Assembly: GCA_009784815.1 (NCBI GenBank) | Contig: WQXN01000006.1 | Coordinates: 1 to 54,276, forward strand | DNA length: 54,276 nucleotides | Direction of reading: 5' to 3' | Origin: Alphaproteobacteria bacterium | GTDB lineage: Bacteria; Pseudomonadota; Alphaproteobacteria; Rs-D84 | Shown here: positions 31,450-42,506 of the stretch, one piece after another | Numbering within the stretch: position 1 is the first letter of the stretch | How the letters are laid out: each line of letters starts with the position of its first letter | Program-made: the position numbers and the translations under genes | Notes under the pieces: generated by a model | What the model was told of the DNA's origin: nothing | The model's database searches: none | Seen by the model: only the letters and a program-made list of their open reading frames with translations

Positions 31450-31525
31450 TCGGGTGTAGTTCAGTTGGTAGAACACCGGACTGTTAATCCGTATGTCGCT
31501 GGTTCGAGTCCAGCCACCCGAGCCA
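31450..31525 (+). tRNA. tRNA-Asn (anticodon GTT), integration target
   Basis: 76 nt with encoded GCCA. Acceptor TCGGGTG/CACCCGA; anticodon GTT at 31483-31485; T-arm GCTGGTTCGAGTCCAGC. Its last nine bases form part of the 18-bp att core, and the recombinase gene reads into it on the other strand. Confidence 0.95.
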
Positions 31526-33067
31526 AGTATTACAGCCCTTTGATTTTAATAGAGAATCAAAGGGTTTTTTCAAGGAATAACAAGCACTTAGACCACTTAA
31601 TGTCGTGCTCGTAAATATCAATCTCAATAATTCGTTCTTTTTTAGATTGTCCGAACAAGCCATAAGGTTTCCAGCACCTGCAGCGATTTCAACTATATTT
31701 GTCATTGTTTTGATAGTTTCCGAATCAGGTAGTTCATATTTCTTATAAGACTCTTCAAGGTCTGCTCGTTCTTTCTTTAAGGATTCAAGTTTGGAATCGT
31801 GTCTTTCTTTTGATATTTCATTATCTAAGAACTTATTAAAAAGTGCTTCTTCTCTGCCTTTCAAGGTCGTTAGTTGAGTTGCTATGTTCTTTTGAATGTT
31901 TTTTATATGACCTGTCTCTTTTGATACATAGTCCTTAATACCTGCCTTGATTTCATTTAGTGCTTTTTCAGGAACTTTTATATTCTTAAAAATCTCTTCG
32001 TGAAGTTGGTCTAGTATGACATTTTCATTTACTAGTTCTTGTTTGCAATTATCTTTCCTACGAGTGCATCTTAGAATAACATATCTTTTACCATTTCTCT
32101 CGTGTGCTTCTGGCGATATAGTGCAACCACAAGTTCCACATTTCATAAGACCGCGAAATATAAAAGGAATTTTCTTATATCCTAATTTGAAAGGAACTCT
32201 GGCTTTTCCTTTTAGTATATCCTGACATATATTAAATAGTTGCCTATCTATCAAAGGTTCGTAAATATGTGGGATTAGTTTGCCTTTAACAAGCATTTCC
32301 CCATAGTAGAAAGGATTTTGAAGAACATTCCATATTTGATTTCTGCTTAAAGTGCAGTTTGGATTTTTCTTTTTCTTCATATATGTTTTAAGACCCATAG
32401 CCTTAGCAAGAAGTTCAAGACTCTTTAATGTGTGCTTTCCAGTAGAGTATTCTTCAAAGAGTCTTCTAACCATTGGACCATAAACATCGTCTATTTCAAT
32501 ATGTGCCTTGGTATCACTGGTCTTTGATATATTCTTGTAGCCAACAGGTGCAAGACCAGACCAGATACCTTTTGAATAGAGATAATTTTTACTTCTTTTG
32601 ACATTATCAGATATATTGTTCGTATAGTTTTTTGCTAACATAACGAATATATCCCAAATCATAATATCAGAACTTACAGAATCCTGTTTGATTGTGATGT
32701 TTTCTTTTATGAAGTGAATTTCAATCCTTCCTTCTTTACGAAGTTCGTCTAAGATTGGACTTTCATTACTGCTTCTTTGAAGTCTATCTACACAATGAAC
32801 GACAATAGCAGTTTTCTTTTTCTGCTGTTTTACAAATTCTATCATATCGTAAAATTGCTCTCTTGGACCACGAGTTGAAGATTCTGTAAAAATAAATCTA
32901 TCCTGTTCAAGAATCTCAAAACCTTCCTTTTCACAATAGTTAATAGTGGCTTCTTTTTGCGCGTCCTTAGAAGCACCTTTTTCTTGGTCTTCTGAAGATA
33001 CACGAACAAGAATTACCGCTTGTTTGCACTTTTCGTTATTTTCTATATATTTTTGCTTTCTTGGCAT
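31484..33067 (-). CDS. Large serine recombinase (element integrase)
   Basis: Site-specific serine recombinase of 527 residues. The catalytic domain has AVILVRVSSEDQEKGAS with the nucleophile serine, then VHCVDRLQRSSNES. The Recombinase domain includes APVGYKN and LSRNQIWNVLQNPFYYGEMLVKG. A zinc ribbon follows (MKCGTCGCTISPEAH .. LRCTRRKDNC) and a coiled coil (about 390-460). The last ten codons (after CNTWLG) are antisense tRNA-Asn sequence and the stop lies in the anticodon loop: integration has replaced the native tail, whose 40-codon remainder lies at 40148-40270 (predicted free-form length 557). Confidence 0.92.
   Translation of the reverse strand: MPRKQKYIENNEKCKQAVILVRVSSEDQEKGASKDAQKEATINYCEKEGFEILEQDRFIFTESSTRGPREQFYDMIEFVKQQKKKTAIVVHCVDRLQRSSNESPILDELRKEGRIEIHFIKENITIKQDSVSSDIMIWDIFVMLAKNYTNNISDNVKRSKNYLYSKGIWSGLAPVGYKNISKTSDTKAHIEIDDVYGPMVRRLFEEYSTGKHTLKSLELLAKAMGLKTYMKKKKNPNCTLSRNQIWNVLQNPFYYGEMLVKGKLIPHIYEPLIDRQLFNICQDILKGKARVPFKLGYKKIPFIFRGLMKCGTCGCTISPEAHERNGKRYVILRCTRRKDNCKQELVNENVILDQLHEEIFKNIKVPEKALNEIKAGIKDYVSKETGHIKNIQKNIATQLTTLKGREEALFNKFLDNEISKERHDSKLESLKKERADLEESYKKYELPDSETIKTMTNIVEIAAGAGNLMACSDNLKKNELLRLIFTSTTLSGLSACYSLKKPFDSLLKSKGCNTWLGWLDSNQRHTD
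31517..31534. repeat. attL core, 18-bp direct repeat
   Basis: CCCGAGCCAAGTATTACA, identical to 40271-40288. The first nine bases are the tRNA-Asn 3' end. Confidence 0.9.
31536..31570 (+). terminator. Element-borne terminator behind tRNA-Asn
   Basis: CCCTTTGATT (31536-31545) pairs with AATCAAAGGG (31555-31564), then six Ts. It lies immediately after the att core and inside the recombinase coding region on the other strand. Confidence 0.8.
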
Positions 33068-33167
33068 AGTATGCTCCTTTGGTTCTTATATGGTTATATT
33101 ATACGATGTATCAAACCAAAAACGAATCAGAAAACTCTCTGGAAGCGGCGGAAATCTCAATTATTTT

Positions 33168-33200
33168 CAATAATTAGGTTTCTGGAAACCATATTATTTA
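33168..33200. repeat. AATAAT..ATTATT hairpin, copy 1
   Basis: AATAATTAGGTTT paired with GAAACCATATTATT through a short loop, between the recombinase gene and the 33214 gene. Related copies at about 37000 and 37917. Confidence 0.6.
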
Positions 33201-33213
33201 ACAAAATGGATAG

Positions 33214-33420
33214 TTAAATATCCTTTTTATTTTGGTCTTTCCTGTCTTCGTGAAGTTTTAGCAACTCTTCCTTTCTTTTCTGCTCCGATAGGATTTCAGA
33301 ACCAATAGCAAAGAATTTAATAAGATTCTGTGCCATAGTGTCTAGTTCTTGGTCTGTAAAGGTTTGTCCTTCATACCAAGACGCTATAATTGCTTTTAAG
33401 TTTGTATTATCGTATGTCAT
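33214..33420 (-). CDS. Small element protein, unknown
   Basis: Protein of 68 residues, helical and charged: an N-terminal segment (TYDNTNLKAIIASWYEGQTF) and a Lys/Glu-rich C-terminus (SEQKRKEELLKLHEDRKDQNKKDI). No family recognised. A TATAAT box lies two bases before the ATG, which would make the leader extremely short. It sits directly upstream of the recombinase gene on the same strand and could be its regulator or excision partner, by position only. Confidence 0.5.
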   Translation of the reverse strand: MTYDNTNLKAIIASWYEGQTFTDQELDTMAQNLIKFFAIGSEILSEQKRKEELLKLHEDRKDQNKKDI

Positions 33421-33437
33421 ATATTATAGAAGTGTCT

Positions 33438-33457
33438 GGTTCGTGAATTGCACGACC
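33438..33457. repeat. GGTTCGTG palindrome upstream of the methyltransferase
   Basis: Imperfect palindrome GGTTCGTGAATTGCACGACC. GGTTCGTGAATT also occurs in each downstream cassette (about 40354, 41151, 41778). Possibly a recombinase or regulator binding site. Confidence 0.5.
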
Positions 33458-33515
33458 TGAAACTTCCAAATAGTGAAAAATATCTTAAATGGCTGAAATA
33501 CTGGAAAAAATCTGA

Positions 33516-33544
33516 TTTACTTTTTAATCCTTAAAAGTTATAAT
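33516..33544 (+). promoter_or_regulatory. Promoter of the restriction-modification operon
   Basis: TTTACT (33516-33521), 17-bp spacer, TATAAT (33539-33544); AAAGGA ribosome site before the ATG at 33570. Confidence 0.55.
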
Positions 33545-33569
33545 CTAATGAAAGGAAAGGATATAACGA

Positions 33570-34670
33570 ATGGGTGCTAATTCGGCAGTTAGGAAAAAGG
33601 AATATATGGAATCAGAATTAAATCTGTTTCCAGATGTTTCTGTATTTCCTACAAAGCACCCGGTTCTTGAAATAAGAACAAATCCACACTTTACATTTAT
33701 AGACCTTTTTGCAGGTATAGGTGGGATTAGGCTTGGAATGGAAGCAGCGGGGGGACATTGTGTGTTTTCTTCTGACTTTAATAAACACGCTCAAGAAACC
33801 TATTTTAATAATTTTAATGAAATGCCTGCTGGCGACATAACAAAGATAGATGAGAAGTCTATCCCTAAGTTTGATGTTTTATGTGCCGGGTTTCCCTGTC
33901 AGCCATTTAGTATTTGTGGAAAACAAAAAGGATTTGACGATGTTAGAGGCACCTTATTTTTTGATATTATAAGGATTGTTAAACATCACCAACCCAAAGT
34001 GCTGTTTCTTGAAAATGTTAAGCATATGATACATCACGATAAAGGAAATACACTAAAAGTCATTTTGCAGCACCTTAAAGAATTAGGGTATTATGTGTCC
34101 TATAAATTATTAAATGCAAAAGATTTTGGAGTAGCACAAAATAGAGAGCGTATTATAATTATAGCAAGCAAGGATAAAGAATTTGACTTTTTACCTATAA
34201 AAACACGCGAATCTGTGTATTTAGAATCTGTGCTAGATAAAGACACAGACGAGAAGTTTTTGGATAAAAAGGAATACACTCTTTTAGATAAAAGTCGGGT
34301 AAATAAAAAAGATTCAGGACTTATTTTTGTTGGCTATCGTAATAAAAACATCTGGAAGAAAGGGATTAGGCCCAACACAGAACATTTATCAAGAGTGCAT
34401 AGACAGCCTAATCGTATCTATTCAGCAGAAGGGAAACACCCAACTCTTCCTTCACAAGAGAGTTCGGGCCGTTTCTTTGTTTATATACCTAAAATAGATA
34501 AGGTTAGAAAATTGACAATTCGGGAATGTTATAGACTTATGGGCTTTCCTGAAAATTATAAAATATCATCTATAACTTCAGAAGCATATAAACAGGGTGG
34601 TAATTCTGTATGTGTGCCAATGATAGAAGAGACAGCAAAAGAAATCGTAAAACAACTACTAGATAACTAA
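33570..34670 (+). CDS. DNA (cytosine-5-)-methyltransferase of a type II system
   Basis: C5 methyltransferase of 366 residues. Motif I FIDLFAGIGGIRLGMEAAG (about 47-65), motif IV GFPCQPFS with catalytic Cys near residue 110, motif VI FLENVKHM, motif VIII AQNRERIIIIA, motif IX RECYRLMGFP and motif X QGGNSVCVPM. A 40-residue N-terminal extension precedes motif I. It is followed 12 bases later by an endonuclease gene, so it forms a type II restriction-modification pair. AT-rich, unlike the chromosome. Confidence 0.93.
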   Translation: MGANSAVRKKEYMESELNLFPDVSVFPTKHPVLEIRTNPHFTFIDLFAGIGGIRLGMEAAGGHCVFSSDFNKHAQETYFNNFNEMPAGDITKIDEKSIPKFDVLCAGFPCQPFSICGKQKGFDDVRGTLFFDIIRIVKHHQPKVLFLENVKHMIHHDKGNTLKVILQHLKELGYYVSYKLLNAKDFGVAQNRERIIIIASKDKEFDFLPIKTRESVYLESVLDKDTDEKFLDKKEYTLLDKSRVNKKDSGLIFVGYRNKNIWKKGIRPNTEHLSRVHRQPNRIYSAEGKHPTLPSQESSGRFFVYIPKIDKVRKLTIRECYRLMGFPENYKISSITSEAYKQGGNSVCVPMIEETAKEIVKQLLDN

Positions 34671-34682
34671 AAGGCGGGGATT

Positions 34683-35780
34683 ATGGCAATAGCAACTTTG
34701 AAAAGAATATATGAAATTGCCAGTTCTGGAGCAAAAGTTGCACTTCCACGCTCTATAATTCAGCATTTAGATAAAATTGCAGAAAATGCACTTAATCAAA
34801 AAGGAGTTTATACAGCCGTTATAACTCTTGGTGTGTATAAAATTCTCAATCCTAAGCAAGATATAAGAAATCATAAAGTAGAATTGCCAGGTGGTTTTTC
34901 TGGAAGAAGTTTTGATACAAAATACATTACCCCTACGCTTATGGAGTTAGAATTGCCACATATGGCAGAAAGTGGTTGGCTTACAAGGTCCATAGAACAA
35001 CTTGCGCCTTTTGATAAAAACTTTCCTGGAAGAATCCGTGTAGTAAAAGAATCATTTTTAGAAGTTGTGGATTTTATACAGAGCAATCCTAATCAGGTTG
35101 AATCTGCACTAGTTTATTTGATACAGGAAGTTATAAAGAAAAATGAAGAAAATAGAGTTGAGATTGTGCCTATTGCCAATCCAGATAAAACAAATATATC
35201 TTTAATAATCTCAATGCTGAAAGAGCATTTTGAAACTAATTATAAGACACATAATGCTGCAAAATTGCCTGTTATAGCATTTCATTCTATTTATGAAATG
35301 TTGATAAATGAATTGAACAGGTTTAACAAATGCAAATTAGAACCATTGGGTAGTCATACAACTTGTGATAGGACATCAGGCCAATCTGGCGATATTCAAA
35401 TCTTTAATTCCAAGAATAAACCTTTTGAAGCAGTTGAAATAAAACTTGGAATCCCTGTTGATAACCAACTTTTACTTCGTGCCAAAGAAAAGATTTATAA
35501 AACTGATAGTTTAACTCGTTATTATATCTTGTCATCGGTAGGAGTAAAAGAATCTGAAAGAACACAAATAGAAAAACAGATTATAGAAATTCAAGAAAAG
35601 CACGGGTGTCAAGTTATCGTAAATGGACTTTATGATACTTTGAAATACTACTTACGCCTTGTGTCTGATTTAGATGTATTTTTGAATAATTATGCAAGGA
35701 ATGTATCCAAGGATAAGGAATTACAGCCACAACATAAACATAAATGGAATGAGATTTTAGAGAAAACAGGTCTAGCTTAA
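34683..35780 (+). CDS. Type II restriction endonuclease (SacI-family-like)
   Basis: Protein of 365 residues paired with the C5 methyltransferase. A PD-(D/E)XK-like nuclease core is visible: D237 in QSGDIQIF, then E252-x-K254 in AVEIKLG. The N-terminal LPGGFSGRSFDTKYITPTL and overall layout resemble the SacI-type restriction endonuclease family, an assignment from memory of the family pattern and not a search. If right, the recognition sequence may be GAGCTC. Same operon as the methyltransferase. Confidence 0.75.
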   Translation: MAIATLKRIYEIASSGAKVALPRSIIQHLDKIAENALNQKGVYTAVITLGVYKILNPKQDIRNHKVELPGGFSGRSFDTKYITPTLMELELPHMAESGWLTRSIEQLAPFDKNFPGRIRVVKESFLEVVDFIQSNPNQVESALVYLIQEVIKKNEENRVEIVPIANPDKTNISLIISMLKEHFETNYKTHNAAKLPVIAFHSIYEMLINELNRFNKCKLEPLGSHTTCDRTSGQSGDIQIFNSKNKPFEAVEIKLGIPVDNQLLLRAKEKIYKTDSLTRYYILSSVGVKESERTQIEKQIIEIQEKHGCQVIVNGLYDTLKYYLRLVSDLDVFLNNYARNVSKDKELQPQHKHKWNEILEKTGLA

Positions 35781-36167
35781 ACTTCATTTTTGCCCCGTAG
35801 TTTTCTATTTTTAATTTTTAAGATTGCGTGATATATTATTACTCCCTGCTTGTTGGAGCAGTTTTTTTTAGTCTCTGTCTCTGCTCCTACACTTCTCAAA
35901 TTCGCGTTTTGGACTCAATTTAGGTCTCACCCTAGCAAGTATATACCAACAGGTCGTTTCGTGGTTCTGGGAGTGCTTATGGCTCGTTCAAGGCTATGTT
36001 GTGGGGATAGAAAACGTTCACTACTCATTTCTAGGTCTTTCTGGACTCAAATTTAGCAAGAATGGTTGATTTCTGGGAGAAGATGAACCATAGGAGCGTT
36101 TTTTAGTTCGTTTTTGTTGGGATACACGATATAAATAAGATAGTGAATAACAAAAAGGACAAACAAA
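35781..36167. other. Gene-free segment of the element
   Basis: After a terminator, 387 bases with no convincing gene. Two related blocks (GGACTCAATTTAGGTCTC near 35922 and GGACTCAAATTTAGCAAG near 36045) and two G/T-rich stretches. A 68-codon open frame here has no ribosome site. It might hold an origin or regulatory site; nothing more can be said. Confidence 0.4.
35846..35869 (+). terminator. Terminator of the restriction-modification operon
   Basis: CTGCT (35846-35850) pairs with AGCAG (35857-35861), then eight Ts. Confidence 0.75.
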
Positions 36168-36446
36168 ATGAAAAAACAATTTGAACTATGGCTTGAATCC
36201 AAAGGCTACTCATACTTCACACCTGAAGGAAGACCTTCTACTATTTATGACTATGTTAATCGTGGTCTTAAAAGAGTTTGCAGAGAAGAACATCTTTCAC
36301 TTTTAGAAGTTGCAAAGAGAGTAGATAGACTTTTACCTGCTTATCAGTATGGAAAAAAATCTGAAATAGGAAAATCTATTAGTCGTTCTTGCAGGTCTTC
36401 ACTTGCTGCATTCTCTAAATTTGTAAAAGAACAAGGAATAGCATAA
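36168..36446 (+). CDS. Small basic element protein, unknown
   Basis: Protein of 92 residues, helical and basic (KKQFELWLESKGYSYFTPEGRPSTIYDYVNRGLKRVCREEHLSLLEVAKRVDRLLPAYQYG). An AAAAAGGACAAAC ribosome site precedes the ATG. The first half is reminiscent of N-terminal helical regions of integrases and DNA-binding proteins found in gut mobile elements, but no firm family is assigned. The stop overlaps the start of a 45-codon gene (TAATG). Confidence 0.55.
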   Translation: MKKQFELWLESKGYSYFTPEGRPSTIYDYVNRGLKRVCREEHLSLLEVAKRVDRLLPAYQYGKKSEIGKSISRSCRSSLAAFSKFVKEQGIA

Positions 36447-36583
36447 TGTGGTATGTAGAATTAAATGGTCGTGTGCTTCCTAATCCATTCCAAAGGTTTA
36501 GTGATTGTCTTGCAGAATGTAATCGTCTGTCTTGGGAAATGGTCGCAGTAATAACAAGACCAGTCCACGAATCAGATTTATAA
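36446..36583 (+). CDS. 45-residue element protein, unknown
   Basis: Begins MWYVELNGRVLPNPFQRFSD and ends in ITRPVHESDL. Its ATG overlaps the stop of the preceding gene (TAATG), so translation is likely coupled. A bidirectional terminator follows its stop at once, which supports a real gene end. No domain recognised. Confidence 0.45.
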   Translation: MWYVELNGRVLPNPFQRFSDCLAECNRLSWEMVAVITRPVHESDL

Positions 36584-36586
36584 AAG

Positions 36587-36612
36587 AAGCCACTTTTAGA
36601 GTGGCTTTCTTT
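36587..36612. terminator. Bidirectional terminator
   Basis: AAGCCAC (36587-36593) pairs with GTGGCTT (36601-36607), flanked by A-rich and T-rich runs, between convergent genes. Confidence 0.7.
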
Positions 36613-36613
36613 A

Positions 36614-36859
36614 TTAGATTGTTTTTCTTCTGTAATAATTAACTGAATCAAATGGCGATATAAAATCTATTATCTCACCAGTATCTTCATCTATAATAAC
36701 ACCAGTTGCATAATTTCTTTTTCTTTTTACTTGTTTAATAATTACATCTCGTTCTCTTGCTGAATCTTTTGTAGTATCAAAGTATTTCTGATATACAATC
36801 GCTTCGTCAGGCAAATCATTACATTTTTGTAGTTTTTTATATAATTCTTGTCTAGTCAT
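36614..36859 (-). CDS. Small element protein, unknown
   Basis: Protein of 81 residues: a helical N-terminus (TRQELYKKLQKCNDLPDEAIVYQKYF), a basic centre (VIIKQVKRKRNYATG) and a strand-rich end (VIIDEDTGEIIDFISPFDSVNYYRR). No family recognised. It lies downstream of the HUH gene on the same strand and is separated from it by a hairpin repeat. Confidence 0.5.
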   Translation of the reverse strand: MTRQELYKKLQKCNDLPDEAIVYQKYFDTTKDSARERDVIIKQVKRKRNYATGVIIDEDTGEIIDFISPFDSVNYYRRKTI

Positions 36860-36997
36860 AATTATTCTCTATTGGTTTAAGGTTATATTCAGAACTTCTT
36901 GCTCTGAACTTCAAAATCATAATGACGCGGTATTGTATCAATGTAAAACAGATAACTTCCAAATAGTAAAAATAGCCAAAGTAGCAGAAATCTAATA

Positions 36998-37032
36998 AAA
37001 ATAATTAGGTTTTATGAAACCATATTATTTAC
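36998..37032. repeat. AATAAT..ATTATT hairpin, copy 2
   Basis: AATAATTAGGTTTT...GAAACCATATTATT, between two minus-strand genes. The preceding ACTTCCAAATAGT block also occurs at about 33462. Confidence 0.6.
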
Positions 37033-37049
37033 TATATAGATTAGATAGT

Positions 37050-37709
37050 TTATGGTCTCAAACTGGCTTTTCTGATAATCCTGTCATTATTCTTTCTAAC
37101 TTCTGCACTAAGTTTAATCTTAGTCTTAACAGGAAATACATCATCAGGATAGATTAGATTGTCTATATTTACAAAAGAGCGACCATTATCAAAACAAATC
37201 TTAAATTCTTTTGATATATATTCTGAAACACCATTTACATCATATATAGGCGAAATAACCATATTATGATGATGTCTTTTAGTCTTTCTTATTTTTCGGT
37301 CGTTTTGTTCTTTAATAAAGATTTCTATTTTGATTATAGGTTCAAGGTCTATCAAAGTCTTAATAATATCTTCTTTCTTAAATCTATCTGTTTTGAGACC
37401 AAGTGCTAAATGAGCGTGTCTTTGGTTATTCTTAACTTCTTCTACCAACAAGAAGGTAAAGTGTTTTTTATAAGATTCTATCCAATGAGAACCAAGCAAT
37501 TCAGGGAATACTTTATTAAATATAATATGTGTTCTGTTTATCAAGTCTGCTCTTGATAACTTTCTACCAAGATACCAACGAAAAGAAAAGAATAGTCCAT
37601 TATCTGTAATTATGTCTGATAGCCATTTATGAACTATCTTAATGTCTTTAATGTATCTTGTATCGTAGTTGTTATATTCTTGTTGTTGTATTGTCTTAAA
37701 ATCTATCAT
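37050..37709 (-). CDS. HUH-endonuclease Rep-like protein
   Basis: Protein of 219 residues with the rolling-circle/relaxase signature. The metal-binding HUH motif is RHAHLAL at about residues 97-103, preceded by a strand (FTFLLVEEV), and the nucleophile motif is EYISKEF near residue 163 (Y-x-x-K). A basic histidine cluster (KTKRHHHN) lies between. This suggests replication initiation or mobilisation of the excised element. It is smaller than typical plasmid Rep proteins. Function is inferred from motifs only. Confidence 0.65.
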   Translation of the reverse strand: MIDFKTIQQQEYNNYDTRYIKDIKIVHKWLSDIITDNGLFFSFRWYLGRKLSRADLINRTHIIFNKVFPELLGSHWIESYKKHFTFLLVEEVKNNQRHAHLALGLKTDRFKKEDIIKTLIDLEPIIKIEIFIKEQNDRKIRKTKRHHHNMVISPIYDVNGVSEYISKEFKICFDNGRSFVNIDNLIYPDDVFPVKTKIKLSAEVRKNNDRIIRKASLRP

Positions 37710-37735
37710 TGTATATCCTTATGGGTAATAAAGTT

Positions 37736-37830
37736 CTTACTATGATTTTTTTGAAATAATCATAGTTTTGGTAGTTTTTACATATAGAACCCAGTATCTA
37801 CACACTTTCTATATTGTGTATAGAACGCGA
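37736..37830. other. Candidate origin/nick region of the HUH protein
   Basis: Within the 288-bp gap between the divergent HUH and methyltransferase genes: inverted repeat CTATGATT/AATCATAG (near 37739-37770), direct repeats TATAGAAC (37787 and 37816 region) and the dyad CTACACA/TGTGTATAG between them. Stem-loops next to a rep gene are where HUH nick sites usually lie. Confidence 0.35.
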
Positions 37831-37912
37831 ATTTTATGAAAACTTGTGCTAAAAATTTCTGATTTGGAAGTTTAATGTGAGAAATCTGTTGTTTTGAAAC
37901 TTCTATATCAAT

Positions 37913-37950
37913 AATGTGGATTTGCAAAACCATATTATTTTGTGCTTTAT
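37913..37950. repeat. AATAAT..ATTATT hairpin, copy 3
   Basis: AATAATGTGGATTTGC paired with GCAAAACCATATTATT, upstream of the 37998 gene. The bases differ from copies 1-2 but the pairing is kept. Confidence 0.6.
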
Positions 37951-37997
37951 ATTACTGAAATGTTGATGTAAAATGCAATAAAACAAGGAGAACACTA

Positions 37998-40013
37998 ATG
38001 TCTAAGACTACATCTTCTGCACTTTCTACAATGATTGCTCGTGGAAATAAAGCAAGAAAAGCCAAAATTGATATTATTGAAGATAAAAAAGTTGCTTCTA
38101 CTATTAAAGAATATGAAAAATCTATAAAGTCAGGTGAAAAGACGCCGGAAGATTTAAGAGACCTTGCAGAACAAGTATCACCTGAAAAGCGTGATGAAGT
38201 GATAAAAGCGGCAATTCAAGCAGGTGAAGATTTATTAAAATTTGAAGTTAAGATGTCTAAGGAATTTAATGAAAGAAAACTCACCTCAGGCAGGCCTTCA
38301 TCTAAAAAAGAGAAGACACCAGAGCAACAAGAAAAACTAACCATTCAAGAAATGGCTAATTTGTATAAACTTGGTAATAGAAAAAAGAAAAGCAAACAGA
38401 CAGGTTATAAAATAGCACAACAGATATTAAGACTTGCTGATAATGAAGACCTTGTTGAGGAAGAGATTAGAGAAGCGTGGGAGAACCACGACCAACCGCC
38501 TACAAGGGCTAGTGTTATGGTTAGAATAACAAAACGAAACAACCAAAGAACTACAACTACACATACTCCACAAGGTGAATATACTGATGATGTAGATATA
38601 GAAACAATGGAAAAACTAACTCCAATTCGTGCAACTTCCTTATTTGCTAATGTTGGAATATCTGAATTCTATCTTGAATATGCAAGAGTAAAAGTTGTTT
38701 TGGCTAATGAACTGCTACCTGAAAGAGCAGATTGGCATAAACATACTTATCCTGATTGTGAAATGATAGAAACGGCTGCTAAGAATCCAAAAACAGGAAA
38801 ACTTGAAAGGACTGGCGATATATACCTAAAAGAGATACAAGACGAAATTGTAAGAAAGCATATAGATAAAAAGTGTTGTATGATAATAGCAACTCCACCT
38901 TGTCAAAGTTTTAGTAAAGCAGGAAAGAGAGACCTTAACAATCCAAACGACCCAAGAACTCCATTATTTATACCTATGCTTGATATAATTAAACGACTTG
39001 GTGATAATAATAAGTATGTTCTTATTGAGAATGTTCCTGAATATGCAAAAGCAGCACCCGATTTTCTTGGACTTGGAAAAGATAAAAATGGTAAAAAAAG
39101 AAGTATAGTTGAATATATCATACATAAACTTGAAAAAGACCTTGGATATAAAGTAAGCGACAAATTTATAAATGCTGCTGACTATGGCACTCCACAATCA
39201 AGAGAAAGATGTATAATACTTGCTTGTAAAAAAGAATTAGGCGAGTGGAAGTTTCCTGAAAAATCTAAATATAGTATTCCTTTATGGAAAGCAATAGGAC
39301 ATCTTCCTGCTAATCCAATTAAAAATGAACTTGTTAAATTAGAAGAACCTATATTCTTTCCTGCAACAAATAGCAAACTATGCGGTTTAAGCGATGAGCA
39401 AGCGGAAGATTTAATCGGAATGGATAGTTCAAATTTAACTGATGACCAGATAAAATTTTTGATACATACACCAACAGGGAAATCGGCTCACGATAATCCA
39501 GATGAGTATCTACCTGTTAATAAAGATGGAAGTCCAAGCGAAGCAAAGCATAAAGCCAGTTTTTCAAGAGAAGATTGGAATAAACCAGCAAGCACGATAA
39601 CAAGTGATAGTGGATATATTGGAGGCCATAATACAATTCACCCAGGTCGTCTTATGACAGACGGGACATATTCAGACCCAAGAGTTTATACTTTGGCTGA
39701 AATCTTAATTTTAACTGGTTTCAATAGTAATTTTTGGTATCAGGGAATGAAAGTAGATAATGAGTTTCCAAAATATAGAATACCAGGTTGGGCTTTGGTA
39801 AGTAAGACTGGTCTGTATAGCGAAGCATTAGCAAGGGTAGTTTTAGGTGAATCATTTTTACCTAAATTGGCTATGAGACTTTGTGAGACTATTCCAAACA
39901 GACCTAATATATCACCAGACAAACCAAAAATCTTTCCTAAGTTTCCAAGAATAACAGGTGAATTTTCAACAGGTCCATTATTTACACTTCCACCAATTAC
40001 TGGTAAAGAATAG
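37998..40013 (+). CDS. Orphan DNA (cytosine-5-)-methyltransferase with long N-terminal extension
   Basis: Protein of 671 residues. Residues 1-205 are a helical, charged extension (coiled-coil-like to about 120, then a possible DNA-binding helical region). The C5 core follows: a diverged motif I SLFANVGISEFYLE near 214, motif IV ATPPCQSFSKAG with Cys302, motif VI LIENVPEY, motif VIII YGTPQSRERCIILA, and a diverged motif X. A GGTGGxG-less motif I and no partner endonuclease set it apart from the 33570 enzyme. An AAGGAGAAC ribosome site precedes the ATG. It may protect the element against host restriction. Confidence 0.85.
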   Translation: MSKTTSSALSTMIARGNKARKAKIDIIEDKKVASTIKEYEKSIKSGEKTPEDLRDLAEQVSPEKRDEVIKAAIQAGEDLLKFEVKMSKEFNERKLTSGRPSSKKEKTPEQQEKLTIQEMANLYKLGNRKKKSKQTGYKIAQQILRLADNEDLVEEEIREAWENHDQPPTRASVMVRITKRNNQRTTTTHTPQGEYTDDVDIETMEKLTPIRATSLFANVGISEFYLEYARVKVVLANELLPERADWHKHTYPDCEMIETAAKNPKTGKLERTGDIYLKEIQDEIVRKHIDKKCCMIIATPPCQSFSKAGKRDLNNPNDPRTPLFIPMLDIIKRLGDNNKYVLIENVPEYAKAAPDFLGLGKDKNGKKRSIVEYIIHKLEKDLGYKVSDKFINAADYGTPQSRERCIILACKKELGEWKFPEKSKYSIPLWKAIGHLPANPIKNELVKLEEPIFFPATNSKLCGLSDEQAEDLIGMDSSNLTDDQIKFLIHTPTGKSAHDNPDEYLPVNKDGSPSEAKHKASFSREDWNKPASTITSDSGYIGGHNTIHPGRLMTDGTYSDPRVYTLAEILILTGFNSNFWYQGMKVDNEFPKYRIPGWALVSKTGLYSEALARVVLGESFLPKLAMRLCETIPNRPNISPDKPKIFPKFPRITGEFSTGPLFTLPPITGKE

Positions 40014-40078
40014 TCCTACTGGATTTGACCTGTCTCTTAGGAAGCCCCTATATAAGAAAGCGAAAATAGGCTAAAAAG

Positions 40079-40110
40079 AGTCCCCTACAAGGAGCAACAA
40101 GTAGGGGACT
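40079..40110 (-). terminator. Strong hairpin after the orphan methyltransferase
   Basis: AGTCCCCTAC (40079-40088) pairs exactly with GTAGGGGACT (40101-40110). The T-run CTTTTT is on the minus side, so it would best stop minus-strand transcripts. Confidence 0.6.
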
Positions 40111-40147
40111 TGGACTTCACCACCTTGTCAGGCTTCTAAGTCCAAAC

Positions 40148-40288
40148 TCAACAAATAAGCAGATTTTTGTTATTCTGGTCTATCTCTTTTAACTTGTCCT
40201 TGAATAGTTCAATCTCTCGTGCTAAACTATGAAAAAGGTCTGGATTACTGGCTCGTAAATTGCAAGTTATCCCGAGCCAAGTATTACA
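40148..40288 (-). pseudogene. Displaced 3' end of the serine recombinase gene (tail A) and attR
   Basis: On the minus strand the att core reads CNTWLG in the same frame as the recombinase at 31484-33067. It continues ITCNLRASNPDLFHSLAREI and on to a TGA at 40148. This is the native C-terminus of the recombinase, separated from its gene by integration. Confidence 0.85.
40249..40288. repeat. att site A (attR) with inverted repeat
   Basis: TGGCTCG (40249-40255) and CGAGCCA (40273-40279) form a 7-bp inverted repeat. The 18-bp core at 40271-40288 is identical to attL. Confidence 0.85.
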
Positions 40289-40313
40289 AGGTCGTCTATT
40301 GGGCGACCTTTTT
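40288..40313 (+). terminator. Terminator after att site A
   Basis: AAGGTCG pairs with CGACCTT, then TTTC. Each att core in the array is followed by its own plus-strand terminator. Confidence 0.7.
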
Positions 40314-40420
40314 CTATGGTGACCTTGACTTTCGGACGATTTTTACTGGTTCGTGAATTACTATTCAAAAAAGATAGTTTTTTAGACCTTTACGAACTCT
40401 GGTTAGGTTTTCCAAGGTTT

Positions 40421-40936
40421 TTAGAGCGTTATCCAATAAAAACGCGAAAGCCGACCATCTTTTTGGTCTATCTCTGTTTTAGATAAAATCCCACCATTAT
40501 GCTCAATAGTTTTCCAACTTGGGGCATTATTATCATTACAGGTTAATAAGACTTTTTCAATTCCCATTGACTTTGCTTGTTTCAATGTTTCAGCAAGTAA
40601 TATATTCGCATATCCTTTACCACGAAATTTTGAACCAGTCGAAAAACCAATATGGCCTCCGTGCTGTTCCAATGCAGGTGTCAAATAATGTCGTAATTTA
40701 CTGAAACCGACAGGTTCATTATCAATCCATAAAACAGATGTTGTTTGTGGCACACGACCTTCTTTTAATCCAATGCCTTTGGATTGCAAATCTGCTGTCT
40801 TTACCCATTCAGCAAAGTCTGTTTGGGATAAACTATGCGAGTGATTTTCAAAACCATTTTCACTCGGTATAGATTGAAATAAATCATAAACAGCCATTGC
40901 ATCTTTTTCTTGGATAGGGCGAAGTTCTATTTTCAT
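40421..40936 (-). CDS. GNAT-family N-acetyltransferase (cassette 1)
   Basis: Acetyltransferase of 171 residues. It begins MKIELRPIQEKDAMAVYDLF. The acetyl-CoA loop lies in GHIGFSTGSKFRGKGYANILLAETLKQAKSMG (R/Q-x-x-G-x-G/A), with VLLTCNDNNAPSWKTIEHNGG downstream. AAAGGA before the ATG at 40936 fixes the start. The substrate is unknown; similar proteins modify small molecules or antibiotics. Cargo of the first single-gene cassette between att sites A and B. Confidence 0.82.
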   Translation of the reverse strand: MKIELRPIQEKDAMAVYDLFQSIPSENGFENHSHSLSQTDFAEWVKTADLQSKGIGLKEGRVPQTTSVLWIDNEPVGFSKLRHYLTPALEQHGGHIGFSTGSKFRGKGYANILLAETLKQAKSMGIEKVLLTCNDNNAPSWKTIEHNGGILSKTEIDQKDGRLSRFYWITL

Positions 40937-41063
40937 TGTTTTGTCCTTTGATTTCAGCATTTTAATTTGTTTATTTATGAAATTCAAGTTTTTATAAAAC
41001 TTCTATTCGTTCCTTAAACAAGTTAATCTCTCGTGCTAGTTCAGCAAAAACATCTGGTTTATC

Positions 41064-41102
41064 GGCTCGTAAATTGCAAGTTATCCCGAGCCAGGTTTTG
41101 CA
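41064..41102. repeat. att-like site B
   Basis: GGCTCG (41064-41069) inverted to CGAGCC (41087-41092). The core CCCGAGCCAGGTTTTGCA at 41085-41102 matches site A at 13 of 18 positions. Confidence 0.75.
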
Positions 41103-41126
41103 AACGCCCTGTAAATGGGCGTTTTT
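41103..41126 (+). terminator. Terminator after att site B
   Basis: AACGCCC pairs with GGGCGTT across TGTAAAT, then TTT. Confidence 0.7.
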
Positions 41127-41315
41127 GCTAGGGTTTGCTTGGCTTTGGGCGAGTTCGTGAATTCTATTTCCAAAAAGTGTATTTTTTAAGCCTTCACGAG
41201 CCCGTACCAGCAAAACCAAGCCTTTCGGCCAGTTCGTATCCTACCGCCCTGTTTTTGATATTTCTGTTTTACTTGTTAGGATTGCTTGTTATAATTAAGA
41301 AAAAGGATTTATAAA
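41127..41315. other. Conserved cassette leader (CutA cassette)
   Basis: The block GCTAGGGTTTGCTTGGCTTT, a GGTTCGTGAA-type hairpin and CGTATCCTACCGCCCTGTTT are nearly identical to those at 41750-41890. The block ends in a promoter-like TTGTTA..TATAAT before CutA. It seems to be the constant 5' part of the cassettes. Confidence 0.55.
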
Positions 41316-41630
41316 ATGGCATATTGCATTATATTTTCAACCGCTGGCTCACAAATCGAGGCTGATAAGATAGCGGCAGCCTTATTGGAAAATCGTGTGG
41401 CATCGTGCGTCCAAATGACACCTATACAAAGTGCTTATCACTGGAAAGGCAAAGTTGAACGAGCAGACGAAATTCATTTGGTTGTTAAGACCCGGGACGA
41501 GTTATATCCGAAAGTTGCAGAAATTATAAAATCCAACCACTCTTACGAAACTCCACAAATAGTTAAGATTCCAATTACTGATGGTTTACCTGCATATTTA
41601 GATTGGATAAAGAGCGAAACAAAATCATAA
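41316..41630 (+). CDS. cutA: Divalent-cation tolerance protein CutA (cassette 2)
   Basis: CutA1-type trimeric protein of 104 residues: CIIFSTAGSQIEADKIAAALLENRVASCVQMTPIQSAYHWKGKVERADEIHLVVKTRDELYPKVAEIIKSNHSYETPQIVKIPI and a final YLDWI. All family landmarks (ASCVQ, Y.W.GK, KT, H.Y..P) are present. In other bacteria it is linked to copper tolerance, but the role is unsettled. It is the sole gene between att-like sites B and C. An AAAAAGGAT ribosome site precedes the ATG. Its stop abuts the stop of recombinase tail C on the other strand. Confidence 0.92.
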   Translation: MAYCIIFSTAGSQIEADKIAAALLENRVASCVQMTPIQSAYHWKGKVERADEIHLVVKTRDELYPKVAEIIKSNHSYETPQIVKIPITDGLPAYLDWIKSETKS

Positions 41631-41726
41631 TATTTCCTTAAAAGCCTTAATTTGTCTTGCAAGGTCGTTAAATATTTCATAATCATTAGCTCGTAAATTG
41701 CAAGTTGTCCCGAGCCAGATTTTGCA
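41625..41726 (-). pseudogene. Orphan serine-recombinase C-terminus (tail C)
   Basis: The minus strand reads CKIWLGTTCNLRANDYEIFNDLARQIKAFKEIL and stops at 41625, homologous to tails A and B. No recombinase body remains. Confidence 0.7.
41688..41726. repeat. att-like site C
   Basis: AGCTCG (41688-41693) against CGAGCC (41711-41716); core CCCGAGCCAGATTTTGCA (41709-41726). A GCCC..GGGC terminator (41729-41750) and the conserved cassette leader follow, filling the 312-bp gap to 41942. Confidence 0.75.
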
Positions 41727-41942
41727 AGCGCCCTGTAAATGGGCGTTTTTGCTAGGGTTTGCTTGGCTTTGGGCTGGTTCGTGAATTACTATTCAAAAAA
41801 GATAGTTTTTAAGGCCTTCACGAACCCAACCTTGGATTTCCAAGCCTTTCAGTCAGTTCGTATCCTACCGCCCTGTTTTTGATATTTCTGTTTTATTTGT
41901 TGAAACGGCTTGATATAATAAAATAAAACAATTGAGACATAT

Positions 41943-42404
41943 ATGAAATCTATCAAAATTGGAGAGTGGGATATAGAATACGATAAACAGGCAACAGAGA
42001 AAATCTATGCGGCAATTAAGCCTTATGCGTGTGATTGTATTTCGTGCCAGAATTATCGTAAAGCAACAGAAAACATTCCTTCGGAAATAAGGAATTTATT
42101 TGATGCTTTTGGGATTGATTTTTACAAGGCAGCAGAAATTTATGATTGCAGTGCAAAACAAGATGATAAACTGATATACGGTGGCTGGTATCATTTTATT
42201 GGGCGGATTGTGGGGGAAAAAGATGGCAAAGAAAATGGTATGTTGATTGGTTGGTATGAGATAACAAAAGATTTTAAAATAACATTTACCAAAGATTCAG
42301 CATTGATTGATGAAAATTTTCCAAAAGATAATATATGCCAAATGGAAATAGTGTTTAATCTTCCTTGGGTTTTTGAAGATAAGCAGTATTTCAATGAGCT
42401 ATAA
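41943..42404 (+). CDS. Cysteine-motif protein of unknown function (cassette 3)
   Basis: Soluble protein of 153 residues. A CDCISCQNYRKA motif (C-x-C-x2-C) near residue 30 suggests a metal site. The rest is strand-rich (LIYGGWYHFIGRIVGEKDGKENGMLIGWYEI, ICQMEIVFNLPWVF). Proteins with a Y-x-C-x-C-x2-C-x-N-Y opening recur as accessory cargo, but I cannot name a family. Single gene between att-like site C and remnant D. Its promoter lies in the conserved cassette leader (TTGATATAATA just upstream). The 3' end overlaps recombinase tail D. Confidence 0.6.
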   Translation: MKSIKIGEWDIEYDKQATEKIYAAIKPYACDCISCQNYRKATENIPSEIRNLFDAFGIDFYKAAEIYDCSAKQDDKLIYGGWYHFIGRIVGEKDGKENGMLIGWYEITKDFKITFTKDSALIDENFPKDNICQMEIVFNLPWVFEDKQYFNEL

Positions 42405-42506
42405 TTTTATTAAACATCTGAATCTCTCTTGTCAGTTCTGTAAAAACCTTAGATTCATCCGTCTCCGCTGCGCTACGCCGCGACAGGTTGGCTCGTAAAT
42501 TGCAAG
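42391..42506 (-). pseudogene. Orphan serine-recombinase C-terminus (tail D) with broken att site
   Basis: The minus strand reads CNLRAN, then an inserted G/C-rich segment (LSRRSAAETD), then KVFTELTREIQMFNKI to a stop at 42391. TGGCTCGTAAATTGCAAG (42489-42506) is the left half of an att site; the core half is missing. Marks the right end of the foreign island. Confidence 0.65.

Follow-up and report, generated by a model that had tools for sequence, protein, structure and literature searches.

The 54,276-nt window analysed here, which is the whole stretch taken from contig WQXN01000006.1 (assembly GCA_009784815.1) of the Alphaproteobacteria bacterium of Rs-D84, contains an integrative element of 8,754 bp adjoining the 3' end of a tRNA-Asn gene (Table 1). 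It is highly probable that this element, whose host is a gut-type alphaproteobacterium, has its attP site within the 3'-terminal part of the gene for its recombinase, that the C-terminal tail of the recombinase is swapped at tRNA-Asn, and that the same junction bounds the small cassette-like units found beside it. The analysis was based on the assembled genome, and the circle of the element was obtained by joining its ends in silico.

The element lies between two exactly matching cores of 18 bp (CCCGAGCCAAGTATTACA), and no further exact copy of this sequence was found in the window. As the initial annotation had claimed, the attL core read in antisense encodes the CNTWLG of the recombinase, and in the integrated form translation continues into the antisense of tRNA-Asn, giving the C-terminus CNTWLG-WLDSNQRHTD, and stops within the anticodon loop. 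The native 40-residue tail was likewise located where it had been placed, 8.7 kb away at the other end of the element. Joining of both ends gave an 8,754-bp circle on which the recombinase frame is continuous across attP and open for 557 codons, the first 517 being common to both forms and followed by ITCNLRASNPDLFHSLAREIELFKDKLKEIDQNNKNLLIC. The window recombinase is a large serine recombinase: its domain order in Pfam (Resolvase, Recombinase and zinc ribbon) is that of this group, and a Foldseek search with the model of an intact relative (L138) gave serine integrase complexes as the best PDB matches.

Table 1. Position of the element, its insertion site, its cargo and the neighbouring units. 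Coordinates refer to the window except in the last row.
Feature	Position	Strand	Remarks
tRNA-Asn (GTT)	31450..31525	+	Insertion site; last nine 3' bases CCCGAGCCA belong to the core
Stop codon of the integrated form (TTA on +)	31484..31486	-	Within the anticodon loop; overlaps the anticodon GTT (31483-31485)
Large serine recombinase, integrated form, 527 aa	31484..33067	-	Resolvase, Recombinase and zinc-ribbon domains (Pfam)
attL core, 18 bp	31517..31534		Antisense reading encodes CNTWLG
Integrative element, 8,754 bp	31517..40270		Adjoins the 3' end of tRNA-Asn, between the two cores
Hairpin and T-run	31534..31572	+	Directly behind the tRNA core, within the recombinase coding end; sequence reading and alignment
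C5 cytosine DNA methyltransferase	33570..34670	+	Cargo
365-aa protein, no family match	34683..35780	+	Cargo; adjoins the methyltransferase
219-aa protein, no family match	37050..37709	-	Cargo; H-x-H stretch HAHLALG, motif by eye
Second C5 methyltransferase, 671 aa	37998..40013	+	Cargo
Native recombinase tail, 40 codons and stop	40148..40270	-	In frame with the recombinase on the circle
attR core, 18 bp	40271..40288		Exact match to the attL core
Recombinase-less unit, 814 bp	40271..41084		Core, terminator, GNAT gene (40421-40987, -), tail copy
Second tail copy ITCNLRADKPDVFAELAREINLFKERIEVL	40992..41084	-	Without attached recombinase
Recombinase-less unit, 624 bp	41085..41708		Core, terminator, CutA1 gene (41316-41630, +), third tail copy
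Older unit	41709..42506		Core, terminator, 153-aa gene (41943-42404, +), decayed fourth tail (18-bp match 42489-42506)
Second family recombinase (L029), same genome	G000:C1:208925-210316		50% identical; ends inside tRNA-Pro(TGG)

The two-tail pattern of the Asn element recurs in L029, a second member of the family encoded in this genome, whose native-type tail was found 4.1 kb off, behind an 11-bp repeat. The 5' end of this gene was apparently disrupted by stops. In 44 of 89 related loci, coming from genomes and viral contigs, the recombinase frame extends at its 3' end into a tRNA gene in antisense (Gln, Asn, Thr, Glu, Leu, Pro, Gly, Ala, His, Phe or Asp), and the hosts of these recombinases comprise metagenome-assembled genomes of gut and termite alphaproteobacteria, Rickettsiales, Chlamydiae and bacteria of the Candidate Phyla Radiation (CPR). 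The tryptophan at the junction is near-invariant and, because its codon TGG is the complement of the CCA end of the tRNA, the end of the tRNA is contained in the coding sequence of the element. The position of the stop is fixed by the tRNA. In five other tRNA-Asn cases (CPR bacteria and alphaproteobacteria) it lies at the 42nd nucleotide, and in most tRNA-Gln(TTG) cases at 63 nt. A stop placed by design in the anticodon loop was therefore ruled out, as this position is a property of tRNA-Asn itself. In 12 of 49 relatives the stop was found 10-15 nt from the tRNA end, that is, in or near the presumed shared core, where little or no swap is possible, so the tail swap is probably not universal in the family. 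At two further loci (L163 and L189) the recombinase 3' end matches the 3' end of a tRNA-Gln and a tRNA-Leu situated 5.4 and 6.6 kb further on, respectively, in apparent tandem arrangements. Neither the attP junction nor the general att pattern turned up in the IMG/VR contigs, and plasmid and phage records searched with P0001 gave distant relatives only (best identity about 35%).

The nature of the native tail was studied with a profile of the C-termini of relatives without tRNA overlap. The native tails of the window element and of the tRNA-Pro element each outscored 998 of 1,000 shuffles, the antisense tail of the window recombinase was no better than shuffled tails, and the tail behind the recombinase of genome G057 (see below) gave no signal. 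In the AlphaFold model of L138 the tail forms a helix (residues 524-546), with values of the predicted local distance difference test (pLDDT) of 67-85 in blocks, whereas residues 516-527 of the integrated window form had a pLDDT below 50. On the basis of these scores and models, a genuine C-terminal piece is most likely lost when the element inserts. The open frame through the tail is little proof on its own, because the beginning of the tail is highly conserved at DNA level; its Arg codon was CGA in 24 of 24 copies. The proposal of different C-termini before and after integration was sustained by the sequence, by L029 as another case within this genome and by the resemblance of the native tail to those of intact relatives, while the accompanying idea of a switch between integration and excision found only partial support. 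Loss of the tail may weaken or change the integrated enzyme, and it may equally be a by-product of the position of attP.

This last explanation, which we regard as quite possible, is that one stretch at the gene 3' end serves as attP, as tRNA end and as coding end, and that a dispensable tail is exchanged without regulatory meaning. Relatives with a stop no more than 15 nt from the end of the tRNA do persist, and the tails of recombinase-less units vary in length and lack clear coding selection, as such an explanation would have it; however, the fit of both the Asn and the Pro native tails to those of intact relatives argues against dispensability. Somewhat more doubtful is a built-in switch, in which the long-tailed form would integrate, the antisense-tailed form would be restrained or specialised in excision, and integration would flip the activity. 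The tail is indeed lost upon integration, it is a real family feature according to the profile and has a predicted helix, and an analogous C-terminal change alters integrase specificity in phage Mx8 (PMC6070905). However, little swap can occur in the 12 relatives mentioned above, and the antisense tails vary with each tRNA, which constrains adaptation. If the tail does matter, the integration state and the neighbouring cassettes would set recombinase activity through its own coding sequence, without a separate regulator.

To the right of attR, diverged copies of the tail, core and hairpin were identified at 41085 and 41709, together with a decayed copy at 42489. The 153-aa product of the older unit has no known function. 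These additional tail and core copies, which the initial annotation did not mention, suggest that a neighbouring unit can return a tail to the recombinase. As in cis-mobilisable elements (CIMEs), the small units are flanked by att sites and have no recombinase of their own. In the aligned units, reading of the sequence revealed a hairpin-and-T-run stretch directly after the core, which would stand in for the tRNA terminator that insertion displaces, and the one at the left end of the element is likely the terminator of tRNA-Asn in the integrated state. A generic consensus terminator scan did not list this last hairpin and recovered just one unit hairpin in the window. Additionally, a conserved noncoding stretch of about 200 bp was observed after each core (for instance, window 41103-41300 and L114:8570-8760), and two features were seen at the left ends of the units, namely the imperfect inverted repeat GGTTCGTG...CACGAAC and a segment resembling a T arm, GGTTCGAGTCC.

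Arrays of units bounded by tail and core after tRNA-Asn were found in at least 10 related genomes. The att/tail pattern was detected at 20 sites in 9 of the 183 family genomes and at none in the reversed control; outside the family, among 385 genomes of the class, it appeared in only one other genome (two identical off-pattern matches). Units directly behind tRNA-Asn were present in G078, G023, G014, G057, G068, G084 and G157, and single further cases in G064 and G071 (both by a looser scan) and in G100, which belongs to another family. One of the nine pattern-positive genomes, G005, was not counted as an array since its tRNA-Asn is in the wrong orientation; the lone att-like tail site near it (L239, position 5247) is either a remnant or due to chance. 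Among 23 delimited units, a full recombinase gene was found only in the 8.75-kb element of the window. Most of the other units contain one or two genes in 0.55-1.9 kb, a few reach 2.2-3.5 kb, and some mapped units hold several genes. Their contents include GNAT, CutA1, peptidase S51, glycosyl hydrolase 32 and many unknowns. Inside most mapped arrays no family recombinase was seen. The one in G057 is located in an additional unit of greater length (about 15 kb); three other units precede this recombinase, which is followed in frame by the tail of the third of them.

A possible mobilisation by a related element is suggested by the comparative shift of one cassette. The first unit after tRNA-Asn in G071 corresponds to the third unit of G078 (74.5% over 1,019 bp, with 168 of 240 residues of the protein identical), and the similarity ends leftward at the core, where the tRNA stands in G071 and the tail of another unit in G078. 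From this comparison, two units may have been inserted at the core in G078 or lost from G071, or the cassette may have been inserted in both genomes; every one of these readings needs core-precise events. We infer that the arrays grew by accretion of recombinase-mobilised cassettes, which would be a variant of tandem-island accretion. A possible, though rather questionable, alternative is that the small units are decayed leftovers of full-size elements which were inserted serially and lost their recombinases, and not mobile cassettes. The degraded fourth tail of the window, a unit of G023 with a seemingly broken GNAT gene and the several genes of some units agree with decay. Nevertheless, compact units of one or two genes with both ends recognisable recur in several genomes, the recombinase-less left end is itself conserved over about 200 bp, and the array position of one cassette differs between two genomes. 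That tRNA-Asn anchors, in this family of alphaproteobacteria, an integron-like system run by a large serine recombinase, in which small mobile cassettes made of att site, terminator and spare C-terminus accrete and one inserted before the recombinase restores its tail and alters its activity, is unlikely.

According to the preferred reading, that of an attP in the recombinase 3' end with a tail swap at tRNA-Asn, the recombinase would join attP (tail, core and coding end) with the tRNA end. The sequence shows that the inserted element restores the tRNA, supplies a hairpin and T-run just behind it, and has lost the native C-terminal tail from its recombinase, the place of this tail being taken by the antisense of the tRNA. 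Every new unit would enter next to the tRNA, and recombinase-less units would use the same site; they would be cassettes or cis-mobilisable remnants that recombinases of this family move and that accumulate at the tRNA. A recombinase coming to lie behind another unit would acquire the tail of that unit.

Several observations weigh against this reading. No empty copy of the site of the window was found in close relatives, and the circle was reconstructed from the assembled sequence. In the distal ten codons of 24 tail copies, the ratio of nonsynonymous to synonymous polymorphism (pN/pS) was 0.79 in frame versus 0.80 and 1.14 out of frame. As these codons lack clear coding selection, the tail in recombinase-less units may be retained only as a DNA half-site. 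Finally, the tandem recombinase gene of G057 is frameshifted. An apparent coding selection in a six-copy subset (0.53 versus 0.81) was overruled by the larger set of 24 tails, in which the frames could not be distinguished. As regards the empty site, the search for an orthologous one in the genus matched only tRNA genes in other surroundings, and the gene at the right flank had no relative among 40 genomes. The fabI-tRNA-Asn locus of genus g10 (L254-L283) is an apparent insertion hot spot, where a hairpin and T-run come first after the tRNA in most of the genomes for which enough sequence is available. The downstream sequence differs among the compared genomes and, as a consequence, this locus offers no simple common empty site.

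With respect to the cargo of the element, the two C5 methyltransferases and the 365-aa protein (33570-35780 and 37998-40013) are perhaps a restriction-modification cargo, the 365-aa protein being, at a guess, the restriction partner of the methyltransferase that it adjoins. The 219-aa protein is possibly of the HUH replication/relaxase type, judging from its H-x-H stretch. No second small serine recombinase (DsiA-like) was found in the larger open reading frames (ORFs) of the element and the several small ones that were scanned.

Integrons also hold small gene cassettes in rows at one insertion site, with proximal growth by the tyrosine integrase IntI, which acts on attC sites folded as single strands. 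The window recombinase is instead of the serine type, the site is a tRNA end, and the units carry a tail and core site, a terminator and possibly a promoter. If the small units do move, the stockpiling of cassettes would not be exclusive to the tyrosine-recombinase integrons, and a comparable role would be open to a serine recombinase at a tRNA gene in very small genomes. Segments that lack a recombinase, are flanked by att sites and are stacked at one chromosomal site are also represented by the CIMEs of integrative conjugative and mobilisable elements and by the staphylococcal cassette chromosome (SCC) islands. The units described here differ from them in their size, which goes down to 0.6 kb with a single gene, and in that each of them has a spare C-terminus of the recombinase together with a hairpin and T-run. 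No description of comparable small-unit arrays was found in the open-access literature, which is not proof of their absence.

The original studies of the integrase of the Myxococcus phage Mx8 are reportedly those of Tojo in 1996 and Magrini in 1999. In this phage attP also lies within the integrase gene, and integration gives it a new 3' end, with an altered specificity reported (PMC6070905). Unlike the element of the window, Mx8 is a temperate phage, and cassette arrays are not mentioned in that review. In mycobacteriophages with integration-dependent immunity such as BPs, attP is also located in a coding gene, and integration changes the C-terminus of its protein (PMC4557955). Unlike here, the altered protein is reportedly the repressor and not the recombinase.

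Among the closest known arrangements is that of the Dehalococcoides ssrA islands with the serine recombinase DsiB (McMurdie et al., 2011), whose gene was proposed to reach its full length solely in the circular form or when it lies behind a neighbouring island (PMC3146451). The C-terminal swap is therefore not new, as its principle was already established or proposed for Mx8 and dsiB. As here, the Dehalococcoides islands are in tandem and bounded by direct repeats, only some have the integration module, and the recombinase 3' end overlaps attL in antisense to the RNA gene; a comparison with SCC was also drawn for them (PMC3146451). They differ in the target, which is tmRNA (ssrA) instead of tRNA-Asn and the other tRNAs of the relatives, and in size, since the vcr islands have about 12 kb and many units here have 0.6-1.5 kb with one or two genes. 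In addition, their module has DsiA, and no such small partner was recognised among the ORFs scanned here. The layout of G057, in which the frameshifted recombinase gene is followed by an in-frame tail from a neighbouring unit, is the arrangement proposed by McMurdie et al. (PMC3146451), and with the tail sequences in hand the 2011 hypothesis of a tail coming from the circle or from a neighbouring island is now directly testable.
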